Below, in pieces: positions 235 to 6,299 of a stretch of 64,000 bases of DNA. Position numbers and translations under genes: made by a program. Below the pieces are notes generated by a model. It was not told the DNA's origin. It searched no databases and worked only from the letters and a program-made list of their open reading frames with translations. Where the stretch lies: contig NZ_QEQK01000009.1 in assembly GCF_003151135.1 (NCBI RefSeq), forward strand, positions 1-64,000. Reading direction: 5' to 3'. Source of the stretch: Abyssibacter profundi (GTDB taxonomy: Bacteria; Pseudomonadota; Gammaproteobacteria; Nevskiales; OUC007). Each line of letters starts with the position of its first letter. Position 1 is the stretch's first letter.

Positions 235-1614
235 ATGAATACACTCGACTGCTTGGTCATTGGCGGCGGCTTCGCCGGCCTGCAATGTGCCAATCGACTG
301 CAGGCGGCGGGGCTTGCCGTACACCTGCTGGAAGCCAGGGACCGCCTCGGCGGCCGGACCCGTGTCGCCCCGCTAGCGGGGCGCACCGTGGACATCGGCG
401 GCCAGTGGATCGGGGCTGACCACGCCGAACTGACGGCGCTGGCCCAGGCAGCGGGCGCGAACATCGTTCCGCAATATGCCCAGGGCGCGCGCCTGCTCCA
501 CCTGGCCAGCGGCGGCCGGGACCGTCTTAAGCGGTATCGCGGTCTCATCCCCAATGCCAATCCGCTCGCGCTGCTGGAACTCGACCGGGCGATCCGGCGC
601 ATCAACCGCGCCAGCCAGACGCTGAATTTGGAGACCCCCTGGGAATCGGCGAAAGCCCGGGACTGGGATCACGAAACCCTGGCCACCTGGAAACAGCGAC
701 ATCTGCGGACGCGGACGGGGCGCGAGATTTTTGACATCGCCGTGCGATCCGTCATGACAGCTGAACCCGGCATGCTGTCCTTGCTCGGCTTTCTGTTCTA
801 CTGCGCCTCAAACAAGGGCTTCGAAGCGCTGACCTCAGTCGACGGCGGCGCGCAGGCCGCCACGGTGGACGGCGGCATGGTGCAACTGGCTGAGCACCTG
901 GCCGCCCCGTTGCGCGCCGATGACCGTGTCACGCTACAGGCTGATGTCAGCCGGGTGACGCTGACCGAACAGGGCTGGCGCGTCGAGGATCGCGAACAGC
1001 GCAGCTGGCATGCCCGGCGACTGGTTTGCGCTCTGCCGCCTGCACTCCAGGATCGCATCGCGTTCGAACCCGCGCTGCCCGCCAACCGCGCGCAGCTGGC
1101 CAATCGCATGCCCATGGGCTCGGTCATCAAGGTGGTCGTGGCGTATCCAACACCGTTCTGGCGACAGGCCGGTTTATCGGGCGAGGCCGTCAGCCACAGC
1201 CTGCCGTTCAACACCGTGTTCGATGCTTCACCGCAAGACGGCTCATCCGGTGCGCTGGTGGGGTTCATCGATGGTGGTCCGGCACGCATCTGGTCTGCGC
1301 ACACGCCGGACGAACGACGCCGTGCGGTGCTGGACAGCTTGGTCCGCTACTTCGGCCCGGACGCGGCTGACCCGTTGGATTACGTCGAACACGACTGGAT
1401 TAGCGACCCCTGGTCGCGCGGCTGCTACGTGGGGCTCATGACCCCAGGGCTGCTCACCGAACTGGGCCCTGCCCTGCGCACGCCATGGTCGGGCATCCAC
1501 TGGGCAGGCACGGAAACCGCCACCGAGTTCTGCGGATATATCGAAGGCGCCATCCGATCCGGCCAGCGCGCCGCGGATGAAGTGCGGATCGCGCTGGCCG
1601 ATCGTCGCCGCTAG
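235..1614 (+). CDS. FAD-dependent amine oxidase family protein
   Basis: This 459-residue protein has the layout of a flavin monoamine oxidase. The N-terminal Rossmann dinucleotide-binding motif (VIGGGFAGL at about residues 8-16) is followed by the acidic residue binding the ribose (LLEARDRLGGRT). The C-terminal FAD contact, IHWAGTETATEFCGYIEGA, lies near residue 420. Such enzymes oxidise primary or polyamine substrates with oxygen; the substrate here cannot be told from sequence. There is no signal peptide, so it should be cytoplasmic. The stop codon shares the tetranucleotide CTAG with the stop of the convergent next gene, so no terminator can sit between them. The length is normal for the family. 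Confidence 0.85.
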   Translation: MNTLDCLVIGGGFAGLQCANRLQAAGLAVHLLEARDRLGGRTRVAPLAGRTVDIGGQWIGADHAELTALAQAAGANIVPQYAQGARLLHLASGGRDRLKRYRGLIPNANPLALLELDRAIRRINRASQTLNLETPWESAKARDWDHETLATWKQRHLRTRTGREIFDIAVRSVMTAEPGMLSLLGFLFYCASNKGFEALTSVDGGAQAATVDGGMVQLAEHLAAPLRADDRVTLQADVSRVTLTEQGWRVEDREQRSWHARRLVCALPPALQDRIAFEPALPANRAQLANRMPMGSVIKVVVAYPTPFWRQAGLSGEAVSHSLPFNTVFDASPQDGSSGALVGFIDGGPARIWSAHTPDERRRAVLDSLVRYFGPDAADPLDYVEHDWISDPWSRGCYVGLMTPGLLTELGPALRTPWSGIHWAGTETATEFCGYIEGAIRSGQRAADEVRIALADRRR

Positions 1615-2435
1615 TCTTCCGTCAGCATCGCCGCGGCGGCCAGATAACCCAGTACCAGCTCAGCCCCCGCCCCGGCCACGTCATCAGCCGCCAGACGATT
1701 CATGGCGTTGATCACCTGCTGGCCGAGGATGTCGAAGCTGTCGGCACTCACGCGACCCGTGCCGGTAATGTCTCGGTTGACCTGCAACGCTGCTAGTCGC
1801 TCCATGACCGCATCGAACCCGGTGCCGGTAATATCCCGCTCCTCACGCATCGACTCACCAAGGTCCAGAATCAGATCGAAACCTGTACCGGTGATGTCCC
1901 GGTCCTGGGTCATCGACCGAGTCGCCCGCACACTCAGGTCGAATCCGGTTCCGGTGATATCACGTTCACCGTACATCGGCGTCTGCCATAGGTAAGGCCC
2001 GATCCAACCGGTGCCACTCAGATCCTGAAATGCCGGTCGAGCCGTTTCAAACTGATCGCCCGACCCTTCAACAGCGGCGAAGTCCAGCAGATCGAGCCGA
2101 CCATCAGCGTTGGTATCAAGCTGCAGAGCAGCCGGTGACCGCCCTGGGGCCTGCGCATCCTGCAGTAGTGTCAACATCGAAAGCGTCGAAATGGCGAGTC
2201 CCTGAAACGCACTCCGGTAGCCGATGTACTCCAGCTGGTACAGCTCCGCGGTCGTTGCCGGCACAGCGTCGCCACCCGCGTACTGGGTGGCCAAGGTTTC
2301 GGCCAAGGGTTTAGCAGCCACGACGATCGACTGAAGGGCCAGTTCATCCAACGGAGCGCTAGGCGACGCGACTGTCGATCCTACTGACGCGAAGCAAACG
2401 AGTGCCGCTGCACACGCGCGGTTCAGAGCATTCAT
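1611..2435 (-). CDS. Secreted protein with five 21-residue DITGTG repeats and a Ca-binding-like loop
   Basis: No family is recognised. The 274-residue product begins with a signal peptide (cleavage near VAS, residue 24). A calcium-loop-like segment, DTNADGRLDLLDF, lies near residues 106-118 and resembles a dockerin or EF-hand loop. Residues from about 138 on hold five consecutive 21-residue units, each opening with D-[IL]-[ST]-G-T-G: DLSGTGWI, DITGTGFD three times, then DITGTGRV. The rest of each unit varies but usually ends in a charged stretch closing with Arg. It is divergent from the DUF6502-like gene, with a shared 132-base promoter region. The DUF4382-like lipoprotein two genes away has the same DITGTGF peptide, suggesting a related function. 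Probably exported; role unknown. Confidence 0.75.
   Translation of the reverse strand: MNALNRACAAALVCFASVGSTVASPSAPLDELALQSIVVAAKPLAETLATQYAGGDAVPATTAELYQLEYIGYRSAFQGLAISTLSMLTLLQDAQAPGRSPAALQLDTNADGRLDLLDFAAVEGSGDQFETARPAFQDLSGTGWIGPYLWQTPMYGERDITGTGFDLSVRATRSMTQDRDITGTGFDLILDLGESMREERDITGTGFDAVMERLAALQVNRDITGTGRVSADSFDILGQQVINAMNRLAADDVAGAGAELVLGYLAAAAMLTED
1749..2024 (-). repeat. Tandem 63-bp repeat encoding D-I-T-G-T-G units
   Basis: The conserved core of the units lies at 2007-2024, 1938-1961, 1875-1898, 1812-1835 and 1755-1772, an exact 63-base period. The DITGTG codons differ almost only at third positions (GGT/GGC/GGA, ACA/ACC/ACG, GAT/GAC) while the amino acids stay the same, so the peptide rather than the DNA has been conserved. 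Confidence 0.85.
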
Positions 2436-2567
2436 GTAATTCCCCAGATGTATTCAATGTGACGACCTGCCAGCACGATTGCATTGATCGCGCGTTGTGC
2501 GAGGTCTGTGCGACCAGTATACGGATACGAGTTGCACAGGAAAGTATTTGGCATCACACTGCCAATT

Positions 2568-3416
2568 ATGGACTCGATGACGCAATTCGACCCTGCGGCA
2601 CAGAGCCGGGTGCAGCGCGCGCTTGAGCGCATCCTGACCGCGCTGGCGCGTGTACTGCTCCGCCAGGGCATTGGCTATACCGCATTTGCAGAAACCGCAA
2701 AACGCGTCTTCGTAACGGTCGCAACCGAAGAATTCGGCCTGCGATCACGGCCGGCAAGCAAGTCGCGTGTGGCATTGATGACCGGGCTGAATCGTCGAGA
2801 CGTTGCCCGCGTACAGCGGCTCGCGACAACCGACAGCCCGCCTCAGATGTACAACCCGGCGTTGCGCATTGTGTCGACCTGGATTCGCGACCCGGCGTAC
2901 CAGGACTCGGAGGGGCACCCACGGGAGTTACCGGTCCTCGGCCCTGCTCCATCTATCGAGGCGCTGCGTAGCACGGTTTGCCCGGACGTCCCGATCACGG
3001 CGGTGACGCGTGAGCTACTGAACACCGGCGTCGCCCGATCGGCTGATGATGATGCGACCCGTCCTGGCCGGATCGCGCTGCGCGTCGACGGTTACGTGCC
3101 ATACCAGGACTCCTCCGCGAAACTCGAGTTCATGGGCACGGACGTGGCCGCTCTTCTGGAAACCATCGGCTGGAATCTTGAGCACCCGCAGTCACCAAAA
3201 TTTCAGCGAAAGGTCAGTTTTAACGACCTTACTCCCGCTGGCGTCGCGGCACTAACTGCCGCTGCTGCCAACCAGGGAATGGATTTATTACGACACCTGG
3301 ATTCGGAACTGGCTCAGCACAGAACCGAAACCGGTGGAGAGTTTGCGGGGATGGGGATCTACGTATTCAGCGAGTCCGGCACGGACGTTCCGACCAGTAC
3401 CGTTGAATCCAGTTAA
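2568..3416 (+). CDS. DUF6502-like protein, possible regulator
   Basis: A product of about 282 residues starting MDSMTQFDPAAQ; the upstream extension to 2484 lacks plausible coding character, and ATG at 2577 is an alternative start. The N-terminal half is helical, with a segment around SKSRVALMTGLNRRDVARVQ that reads like a helix-turn-helix, and no signal peptide or membrane segment follows. From memory it resembles the DUF6502 family, whose function is not established. The gene sits 19 bases before the DUF4382-like lipoprotein, likely as one transcript, and is divergent from the DITGTG-repeat protein. A regulatory role for the cluster is an inference from the HTH-like segment and the divergent layout. 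Confidence 0.65.
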   Translation: MDSMTQFDPAAQSRVQRALERILTALARVLLRQGIGYTAFAETAKRVFVTVATEEFGLRSRPASKSRVALMTGLNRRDVARVQRLATTDSPPQMYNPALRIVSTWIRDPAYQDSEGHPRELPVLGPAPSIEALRSTVCPDVPITAVTRELLNTGVARSADDDATRPGRIALRVDGYVPYQDSSAKLEFMGTDVAALLETIGWNLEHPQSPKFQRKVSFNDLTPAGVAALTAAAANQGMDLLRHLDSELAQHRTETGGEFAGMGIYVFSESGTDVPTSTVESS

Positions 3417-3435
3417 CAGTTCTCGGAGAGTCATC

Positions 3436-4419
3436 ATGAGCAGCACACGCTTCATCCTGCCGACCGCTTTCGCCTTCGCCCTATCTGCGTGTGGCGGCGG
3501 CAGCAGCAGCGCCGATATCACCGGCACCGGTTTCGTCTCCCTTGGCGTCACCGACGCGCCAGTCGACAATGCCGATGCGGTGGTGGTGACCTTCACCGAA
3601 GTCCAGTTGCTGGGCGACGATGATGCTGTCCGTCAGACGTTTACCCTCGACACCCCACAGCAAATCGATCTGCTGGCCCTGCAGGGCAACAACAGCGCAT
3701 TCCTGGTCGAGGGCGAGGAAGTTCCGGTCGGCACATACGAGCAGGTGCGGCTCATCGTTGATGCCGTGGCCCCGAGCTGCAACAACATTCCGGACCCGCT
3801 ACCGTCGTACATCACCATCGACGGCGTCGACTACCCGTTGGTGGTCCCGAGCGGCGCGCAATCCGGCCTGAAATTCCAGGGGCCGATCACTGTTGCAGCC
3901 GGCCAGTCGGCAGCCTACACGGTGGATTTTGATCTGCGTCAATCCATCGCCGAGCGTGGGGCAACCAACTGCTACAACCTGCGCCCAGTGGTGCGGGTGG
4001 TCGACAATGCCGAGGTGGGTACTTTGACCGGCACCGTCGATCCCGACCTGTTCGCCGACGCTGCCTGTGCCAGCGCAGACCCGACGACGGGTGACGGTGG
4101 AGCCGTGTACGTCTTCGCCGGCGGGACCACCGTGCCGGATGACGTCGACACCTCAACCGAGGAGGATGTCGATCCGCTCACCACGGCGCTGCTCACGCCC
4201 GTCACCGACGAATCAGACGCGGTCGTCGGCTATGAGTACGAGGTCGGCTTCCTGCTGGCAGGCGAGTACACGGCGGCTTTCACCTGCCAGGCCCGTGATG
4301 ACAATAGCGAGCAGGACGACGCGATTGGATTTGGTGACGTCGCGAACAACATCACCATCAATGCCGACGGCGAAACCACGGTCAACTTCGAGGCCGCAGC
4401 CGAAACCAGCCCGGAATAG
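3436..4419 (+). CDS. DUF4382-like lipoprotein with DITGTGF motif
   Basis: The start at 3436 is chosen because GGAGAG precedes it and it yields a clean lipoprotein signal (FAFALSACGGGSSS, lipidated Cys near residue 19). Directly after the Gly/Ser linker comes ADITGTGF, then SLGVTDAPVDNADAVVVTF, typical of the DUF4382 beta-sandwich family. The following 150 residues keep the family pattern, including a DGVDYPLVVPSGAQSGLKF stretch. The acidic C-terminal part (residues about 200-327) resembles a carboxypeptidase-regulatory-like beta domain. The product is 327 residues and should be anchored in the outer membrane. DUF4382 proteins have no settled function. A hairpin terminator follows. Confidence 0.75.
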   Translation: MSSTRFILPTAFAFALSACGGGSSSADITGTGFVSLGVTDAPVDNADAVVVTFTEVQLLGDDDAVRQTFTLDTPQQIDLLALQGNNSAFLVEGEEVPVGTYEQVRLIVDAVAPSCNNIPDPLPSYITIDGVDYPLVVPSGAQSGLKFQGPITVAAGQSAAYTVDFDLRQSIAERGATNCYNLRPVVRVVDNAEVGTLTGTVDPDLFADAACASADPTTGDGGAVYVFAGGTTVPDDVDTSTEEDVDPLTTALLTPVTDESDAVVGYEYEVGFLLAGEYTAAFTCQARDDNSEQDDAIGFGDVANNITINADGETTVNFEAAAETSPE

Positions 4420-5774: not shown

Positions 5775-6299
5775 ATGTTTTCGATCCGCTTCGCCCAACC
5801 CAAGGACTGGCCCAGCATATGGGCCATCCTCGAACCCGTCTTTCGCAGCGGTGAGACCTACGCGGTTGATCCGCGGATTGACGAACAGTCGGCCCGTCGC
5901 GACTGGTTTAGCCGACCGCTCCGTACGTTTGTGGCCTGCGATTGCGATGGTCGGGTGCTCGGGACCTCCATCATCAAGGCTAACCAGGATGGCGGCGGGG
6001 CCCACGTGGCCAATGCCGCATTTGCGGTCGACCCGGCTGCGCGGGGACGCGGCGTGGCCTCAGCCTTGTGCGTCCATGCCCAGGATCACGCCCATGCCTT
6101 GGGGTTTACCGCGATGCAGTTTAACTTTGTCGTGGCAACCAACCTGGGTGCCCTGCGCTTGTGGAAACGGCTGGGTTTCGCAATAGTCGGAACCCTGCCG
6201 GACGCATTCGACCATCCCGTGCACGGGCGGGTGGATGCGCATGTCATGCACAAGCCGCTCACCGGCAACGAATCGCTCTTCACGGAAACACCATCGTAG
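5775..6299 (+). CDS. GNAT family N-acetyltransferase
   Basis: The start at 5775 gives MFSIRFAQPKDWPSIWAIL, the usual first strand and helix of a GNAT domain; the frame upstream lacks family resemblance. The acetyl-CoA pyrophosphate loop is visible as VDPAARGRGVASALC (about residues 84-98), and the C-terminal part, NLGALRLWKRLGF, matches the family's motif B. The product has 174 residues. The acceptor substrate is unknown. The gene lies 8 bases before the carbonic anhydrase gene. Confidence 0.8.
   Translation: MFSIRFAQPKDWPSIWAILEPVFRSGETYAVDPRIDEQSARRDWFSRPLRTFVACDCDGRVLGTSIIKANQDGGGAHVANAAFAVDPAARGRGVASALCVHAQDHAHALGFTAMQFNFVVATNLGALRLWKRLGFAIVGTLPDAFDHPVHGRVDAHVMHKPLTGNESLFTETPS

Follow-up and report, generated by a model that had tools for sequence, protein, structure and literature searches.

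DUF6502 proteins as predicted HetR-like regulators linked to exported partners that carry a short peptide tag

The window analysed here, a stretch of 64,000 nucleotides from Abyssibacter profundi (NZ_QEQK01000009.1, positions 1 to 64,000), contains a gene for a protein of the DUF6502 family and, downstream of it, a gene for a DUF4382 lipoprotein that carries the short peptide DITGTGF at its mature N-terminus. In a wide range of bacteria, DUF6502 genes are accompanied by genes for exported proteins which bear a peptide of this type, hereafter the tag, and a palindromic operator recurs upstream of the DUF6502 genes. The linkage of the tag to DUF6502 and its selection at the level of the peptide are solid computational results, as are the operator and its gene targets (the regulon), and the predicted regulator with its operator is well supported computationally. 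We propose that DUF6502 is an autoregulating, HetR-like regulator, that the tag is its peptide ligand, and that the locus constitutes a peptide-responsive autoregulatory switch. We regard this reading as rather probable; operator binding, tag binding and the direction of the effect are inferred parts of it. A family without a described function would thereby gain a role, that of an autoregulating DNA-binding protein, together with a DNA site and a likely ligand.

The DUF6502 locus of Abyssibacter profundi

In the window, the DUF6502 protein is encoded at positions 2568–3416 of the plus strand, the start codon being probably the ATG at 2568 or 2577 rather than the TTG at 2484. Like all the regulators surveyed, it is a member of PF20112 by the Pfam profile (E value 5.6e-41; 140.6 bits, where the gathering score is 27; residues 46–297 of the called open reading frame) and, based on structure prediction with AlphaFold2 (AF2) and on Foldseek, a predicted HetR-like DNA-binding autoregulator and the proposed reader of the tag. 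The gene which follows (3436–4419, plus strand) encodes the tagged exported partner, a DUF4382 lipoprotein (PF14321; E value 8.2e-36; 123.7 bits against a cut-off of 25). Its lipobox LSAC (Cys codon at 3490–3492) is followed by GGGSSSA and then by the tag DITGTGF (3514–3534, plus strand). Divergent to this pair, on the minus strand (1611–2435), lies the gene for a secreted repeat protein with a signal peptide, one dockerin/EF-hand-like loop (LDTNADGRLDLLDF) and five 21-residue D[IL][ST]GTG units. The three genes and the shared heptapeptide were found where an initial annotation of the DNA had placed them, and its DUF6502 and DUF4382 labels are borne out by the two profiles. That annotation had also described five DITGTG units; there are indeed five units of 21 residues, but four of them read DITGTG and one reads DLSGTG.

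A nucleotide pattern for this type of peptide, GRNATHNSNGGNACNGGN, was run over the 3.74 Mb genome and gave five matches at the locus and eight elsewhere. None of the eight matches outside the locus begins a mature exported protein, and the sharing of the peptide is therefore not attributed to chance. The initial annotation had envisaged that the motif might be missing from the lipoprotein of close relatives that keep the repeat protein; the relative G274 keeps both, with five DISGTG units in the repeat protein and DITGTGF on the lipoprotein. Two further relatives, G275 and G276, have a tagged lipoprotein with DISGTGF and DISGTGS, respectively. The genome of the window contains a second DUF6502 gene (C8:56308-57084), and the next gene encodes a DUF5666-type lipoprotein with AGIEGTGD after the lipobox, i.e., another domain with the same core at the same position.

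Linkage of the tag to DUF6502

DUF6502 occurs in 76 of 274 genomes of the class. About 80 neighbourhoods were taken, which yielded 105 distinct DUF6502 genes, 93 with enough downstream sequence and 87 with an exported partner. The motif G[TS]G follows the signal peptide in 83 of these 87 partners, and the strict form [ILVFM]xGTG is present in 66. A second, independent set was drawn from a named genome collection (80 loci of 468 relatives, from Nitrospirota, Desulfobacterota, SAR324, Binatia, Tectomicrobia, Planctomycetota and Pseudomonadota), and for this set the motif had been defined in advance; G[TS]G was found in 72 of its 75 exported partners and the strict form in 51. Among the three exceptions, one (L252) has a frameshifted start and the tag GIGGTG is present, while in another (L237:3225-6601) DUF6502 is separated by a transposase-like gene from its DUF5666 partner, which nevertheless keeps the tag. 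The comparison of gene neighbourhoods suggested in the initial annotation thus reveals a very strong link to DUF6502.

Judged from sequence conservation, the informative core of the tag is [ILVF]-x-G-[TS]-G, and the DIT and F, which had been singled out as its less expected part, are details of a lineage. Nearly every copy of the motif follows a G (97) or a D (12), and two to six copies of the tag are present in 18 proteins of the class-wide survey. The partners are both lipidated and non-lipidated exported proteins, and their domains are unrelated: DUF5666 (PF18914) and DUF4382 (PF14321), the most common, CarboxypepD_reg/fn3/Calx-beta, DUF4397-like, FecR-like, and proteins of about 90 residues with little else. 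Thus, the tag marks the partner of DUF6502 and not a domain family, and the linkage explains the N-terminal IGGTG that is common to many exported proteins of unrelated domain type; the literature searched contained nothing relevant on IGGTG. The initial annotation had suggested a shared ligand, sorting or binding element. A recognition-type element tied to the regulator agrees with these counts, but a sorting role is disfavoured, since non-lipidated exported proteins are tagged too and as many as 13 copies are seen.

The close spacing of the two genes allows a simpler account, in which the 5' end of the partner gene (signal peptide and tag) travels with the DUF6502 gene while downstream domains are swapped, with no functional contact between the products. 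The start of the partner gene overlaps the DUF6502 stop codon in 56 of the 87 pairs, commonly by an ATGA-type overlap (translational coupling), and where the partner is downstream the tag usually lies within about 60–350 nt of that stop codon. However, in three loci that have no downstream partner it is the upstream or divergent neighbour that is tagged. At L090 (3614-5527, minus strand) this is a FecR-like exported protein directly upstream of DUF6502 with 13 IxG[TS]G copies, mostly IEGTG and several at a spacing of six residues; at L104 it is an upstream DUF5666 gene, and at L247 a divergent DUF4382 gene with IGGSG. A 5' cassette that simply hitchhikes is therefore disfavoured. The divergent gene of the window is tagged as well, the tag is conserved across phyla whereas the flanking linkers are not, and the copy number ranges from 1 to 13; we regard such hitchhiking as quite improbable.

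Some loci have unusual partners. Two tandem DUF4382 lipoproteins, with the tags DISGTGN and DISGTGI, lie behind one DUF6502 gene at L180 (2049-4150, minus strand). The partners of about 90 residues after DUF6502 at L118, L120 and L107, among the smallest seen, consist of a signal peptide, one IxGTG tag and acidic/proline-rich sequence. At L112, an exported protein encoded about 91 nt after the second of two tandem DUF6502 genes (stop near 5834) has a run of GISVGD/GITVGD instead of GTG tags, which is possibly a variant ligand.

Controls on the tag

It had been suggested that the GTG might partly be background of the DUF4382 family. The tag is present on six of six DUF4382 genes linked to DUF6502 (those of the window, G274, G275 and G276, and two in tandem in G287) and on none of 27 unlinked DUF4382 proteins. 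Fisher's test for this comparison used nine linked entries, some of them duplicates from overlapping loci, and the conclusion holds with the six distinct genes. Of about 25 DUF5666 proteins that are not partners, including paralogues at the same loci, one is tagged (L104). These unlinked and same-locus controls rule out a background of either family. Permuted motifs ([ILVFM]xTGG, xGGT, xGAG, xGNG, xGDG and xGVG) occur in only 0–2 of the same 87 N-termini, and their near-absence rules out compositional chance from linkers rich in Gly, Ser and Thr.

At the level of whole genomes, GIGGTG[IV] is encoded in 32 of the 76 genomes with DUF6502 versus 12 of the 198 others (Fisher 9e-12). Eleven such sites were read out in genomes without DUF6502, and none is at an exported N-terminus; they belong to methionine sulfoxide reductase-like C-termini, oxidoreductases, an amidohydrolase-like protein and doubtful frames.

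The near-constant distance of the tag downstream of the DUF6502 stop codon would also suit a DNA or RNA regulatory element encoded within the partner gene. Against this, the synonymous codons of the tag (334 Gly and 153 Thr) follow the usage of their own gene, with GGC 164 times versus 149.6 expected and ACC 71 times versus 63.9; the copies in the window differ in codons, and repeats stand at variable distances. A nucleic acid element is largely refuted and scarcely credible. Since codon choice matches the gene background, the tag is kept as a peptide and not as a DNA or RNA element.

Operator and regulon

The palindrome TGGG-N8-CCCA is found in 85 of 170 regions upstream of DUF6502, whereas no other spacing gives more than four, shuffling gives about 0.4 and the gene itself contains one. 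In its fuller form the consensus reads TTGGGA-N6-TCCCAA, which most often starts 20–30 bases before the ATG. In the window, a putative operator of the form TTTGGC-N8-GCCAA, TTTGGCATCACACTGCCAA (2547–2565, plus strand), lies directly 5' of the DUF6502 start codon, ends two bases before the ATG at 2568 and is kept in G274, G275 and G276; the paralogous DUF6502 locus of the same genome has the operator TGGGCTACGCTGCCCA. The change of the half-site from GGG to GGC accompanies a change of the recognition helix from RKE to RR[DE] (66 of 70 resolved versus four of four), and the two changes are probably one evolutionary event. A second imperfect inverted repeat (CTGTGCGACCAGTAT / ATACGAGTTGCACAG) is present at positions 2506–2539 of the window, in the promoter region from which the repeat gene and DUF6502 are divergently transcribed.

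A search for the exact palindrome in 30 DUF6502 genomes returned 27 sites, versus two for the reversed pattern. DUF6502 genes account for nine of the 27, and another nine precede genes for untagged DUF5666 lipoproteins; for G061:C1:932489 and G205:C104:25201, the assignment to the adjoining DUF6502 gene was made from coordinates. Given the operator at untagged DUF5666 genes, the switch seems to act in trans on untagged exported proteins, and the tag appears to be reserved for the co-transcribed partner, as expected of a feedback ligand. The AT-rich centre of the operator may overlap the -10 element, in which case DUF6502 would be an autorepressor. Operators of the DUF6502 type were also observed at G021:C49:71488 (L340) and G169:C11:6311 (L341), upstream of a small glycine-zipper-like exported protein of 117 amino acids; it matches none of the three DUF profiles.

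Predicted fold of DUF6502

The cyanobacterial heterocyst-patterning regulator HetR is a dimer that leaves DNA once XRGSGR binds to the hood at its C-terminus, where the peptide extends the HetR sheet by one strand, its Ser contacting Glu253 and its Arg residues contacting Glu253, Asp270' and Asp278' (PMC4649674). The AF2 model of DUF6502, computed with 74 sequences, is confident, with a predicted local distance difference test score (pLDDT) of 86.7. Compared with the PDB by Foldseek, this model has HetR as its top three and only clear matches (4j00, 6.1e-5; 4izz, 1.0e-4; 3qod, 6.3e-3), the best with probability 1.0, and the next match, an unrelated one, is at 0.19.

The C-terminal loop of DUF6502 joins the last long helix to the last conserved segment, and its sequence in 61 of 74 core members is VxG[TS]GRKRAGxGIYYFEE; five other occurrences of G[TS]G were counted in 16,434 residues. 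Class-wide, GTG is present in the tail of only 21 of 97 sequences. The peptide site of HetR is bordered by the loop that links its last helix and last strand (PMC4649674), and by analogy the DUF6502 tail would sit at the equivalent site. When the class of the tag was compared with the columns of the DUF6502 alignment for covariation, 12 of the top 25 columns fell in the hood-like part versus about nine expected, a comparison that is confounded by phylogeny.

The proposed switch

In the switch that we propose, DUF6502 would bind the palindrome over its own start (the TTGGGA form in most lineages, the TTTGGC form in the window) and would thereby regulate the operon to which it belongs, along with untagged genes for DUF5666 lipoproteins in other genomes. 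The exported partner, co-transcribed with it, would bear [ILVF]-x-G-[TS]-G at its mature N-terminus, and DUF6502 might read this tag either from the precursor before its export or from a fragment that is set free outside the cell and re-imported. Reading of the tag would alter the binding of DUF6502 to DNA, as the RG[ST]GR peptides of PatS/PatX free HetR from DNA. The internal xG[TS]GR in the C-terminal loop of many DUF6502 proteins, beside the equivalent of the HetR peptide site, may act as a competitor, and in the genome of the window the divergent repeat protein would supply five further tags.

Several observations weigh against such a switch. The structural alignment of DUF6502 with HetR by VIA-align is modest (Z 7.6 over 222 residues, with HetR among the top rows), and its root-mean-square deviation of 10.5 means that the relative placement of the parts differs or that the match is partial. 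The helix-turn-helix part of DUF6502 alone resembles many regulators, including sigma factors, and the middle part also resembles winged helices. No sequence homology between DUF6502 and HetR was detected by Pfam scan, hhalign or an ungapped register test. PF03574 and PF18460 were not among the best 25 of the 40 families matched by the 74 DUF6502 proteins at E values up to 10, nor among those matched by the window protein, and HetR_C was not found in its own genome or five relatives, the control genomes being silent too. The hhalign comparison, local and global, of 135 DUF6502 sequences with a HetR alignment of only two sequences (those of PDB entries 3qod and 4hri) gave a probability of 0.2–0.3% and a score within the range of decoy proteins. 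The register test placed two DNA-binding segments in the expected register with a score that was not significant. A search for further HetR sequences in plasmid and phage collections found none, and a search of PDB sequences with the DUF6502 profile found no relative. Membership in the HetR family by sequence was not upheld by hhalign, decoys or register tests. Because sequence methods give no sign of HetR, DUF6502 is called HetR-like and is not filed in the HetR family.

Other points against the switch concern the ligand and the operator. The tag, [ILVF]xG[TS]G, is without the two flanking arginines that dominate the binding of PatS to HetR, and it is N-terminal in a large exported protein, so that release and return of a peptide would need a protease and an importer. 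The DUF6502 of the window, like its clade, has no GTG in the tail; five of about 168 DUF6502 loci are without a tagged neighbour. A search of the window's genome for the GGC-type operator, with one mismatch, gave fewer matches than the reversed-pattern control, and no regulon could be read from it. The literature searched contained no binding or DNA-protein experiment on any DUF6502.

The tag might also be read outside the cytoplasm by a processing, surface-display or modification factor (e.g., by O-linked modification of its Thr/Ser), with DUF6502 only regulating transcription of the operon. This would suit several features of the tags: they stand at the mature N-terminus behind a lipobox or signal peptide, many lie in Gly/Ser linkers or are repeated, T and S alternate freely, and the repeat protein holds several copies. 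However, the tag tracks linkage to DUF6502 and not the type of export, and untagged DUF5666 lipoproteins stand under the same operator. The neighbourhoods, whose annotation was not exhaustive, showed no further gene conserved next to the pair, and a cytoplasmic regulator alone would not explain tags in unrelated partners. We consider reading of the tag outside the cytoplasm unlikely, and prefer DUF6502 as its reader.

The repeat protein as a local accessory

The copies of the tag in the repeat protein span positions 1755–2024 on the minus strand, with DLSGTG at 2007–2024 and DITGTG at 1944–1961, 1881–1898, 1818–1835 and 1755–1772. The units are exactly 63 nt (21 residues) apart, the first bases being at 2024 for DLSGTG and at 1961, 1898, 1835 and 1772 for DITGTG. 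DNA identity between the copies is only 75–100%, with synonymous differences.

The locus had been described as a three-gene module, and the three genes are indeed together in the window and in G274. Among 60 relatives tested, though, the repeat protein is present in one (G274; 50% identity, five DISGTG units, the partner keeping DITGTGF); in G275 the tagged pair is kept and the repeat protein was not found. The conserved unit is therefore one of two genes, and a conserved third gene is ruled out. The repeat gene is present in two of three members of the genus, and no relative of its product was found in viral contigs. The protein is best seen as a local, lineage-specific accessory with extra copies of the tag, for which we propose the role of a multi-copy tag reservoir.

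It might, alternatively, be a calcium-binding protein of the dockerin/EF-hand type, the DITGTGFDLILD units being loop-helix repeats without functional relation to the tag of the lipoprotein. The 21-residue spacing is that of a loop plus helix, a DxNxDGxxDxxD-like loop is present in both homologues, and the G274 homologue alone has a weak match to a Dockerin_1 half-repeat (E value 0.043). On the other hand, the repeats are without acidic ligands at several loop positions, and there is no Pfam match for the window protein, not even to Dockerin type I (PF00404), a family with two Ca-binding loop-helix repeats of 22–24 residues. In both species, six residues of the unit are equal or nearly equal to the tag of the partner. 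The AF2 model of the repeat protein alone is of low confidence (pLDDT 36.7) and was not usable for this question. We regard a dockerin without relation to the tag as rather improbable, and retain the repeat protein as a reservoir of tags.

Comparison with known systems

The literature searched described no relatives of HetR outside the cyanobacteria, and no paper mentioned DUF6502. Common ancestry of the two seems to us the likeliest reading. Whether HetR-type, peptide-gated control of transcription is more than a cyanobacterial speciality seems to us an evenly balanced question. If it is, DUF6502 would be a sister family, unrecognisable by sequence, with cognate exported tag proteins, an operator and a small regulon, across Pseudomonadota, Nitrospirota, Desulfobacterota and other phyla. 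The DUF6502 system could be a wider source of the heterocyst patterning peptides, or a convergent re-invention. If the tag is the ligand, a kind of peptide sensing familiar from filamentous cyanobacteria would be widespread, and how the HetR-PatS patterning pair arose could be studied outside the cyanobacteria.

In the RRNPP-type peptide pheromone systems of Gram-positive bacteria, a cytoplasmic regulator is combined with a neighbouring exported precursor that contains a short peptide signal. DUF6502 would likewise be a cytoplasmic regulator paired with an exported, peptide-bearing neighbour. The fold of the regulator differs as far as known, no RRNPP protein being among the listed PDB fold matches of DUF6502.

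The likeness to HetR extends further. DUF6502 is of similar length, with an N-terminal helix-turn-helix and a helical C-terminal part that has a final conserved, strand-like segment. Its operator is a GGG/CCC palindrome, as is the HetR site GGG-N5-CCC (PMC4649674), although the spacing is N8 in place of N5, and autoregulation is proposed. The core of the proposed ligand is G[ST]G, and RG[ST]GR is the only sequence common to PatS, HetN and PatX (PMC7761841). PatX is exported by Sec, and the peptide HRGTGR derived from it inactivates HetR (PMC12756182); its ligand thus also comes from an exported precursor. In contrast to HetR, DUF6502 is not cyanobacterial and has no detectable sequence similarity to it. 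Its tag stands at the N-terminus of an exported protein that is co-transcribed with it and varies in domain type; the tag is often repeated, and many DUF6502 proteins carry an internal xG[TS]GR of their own.

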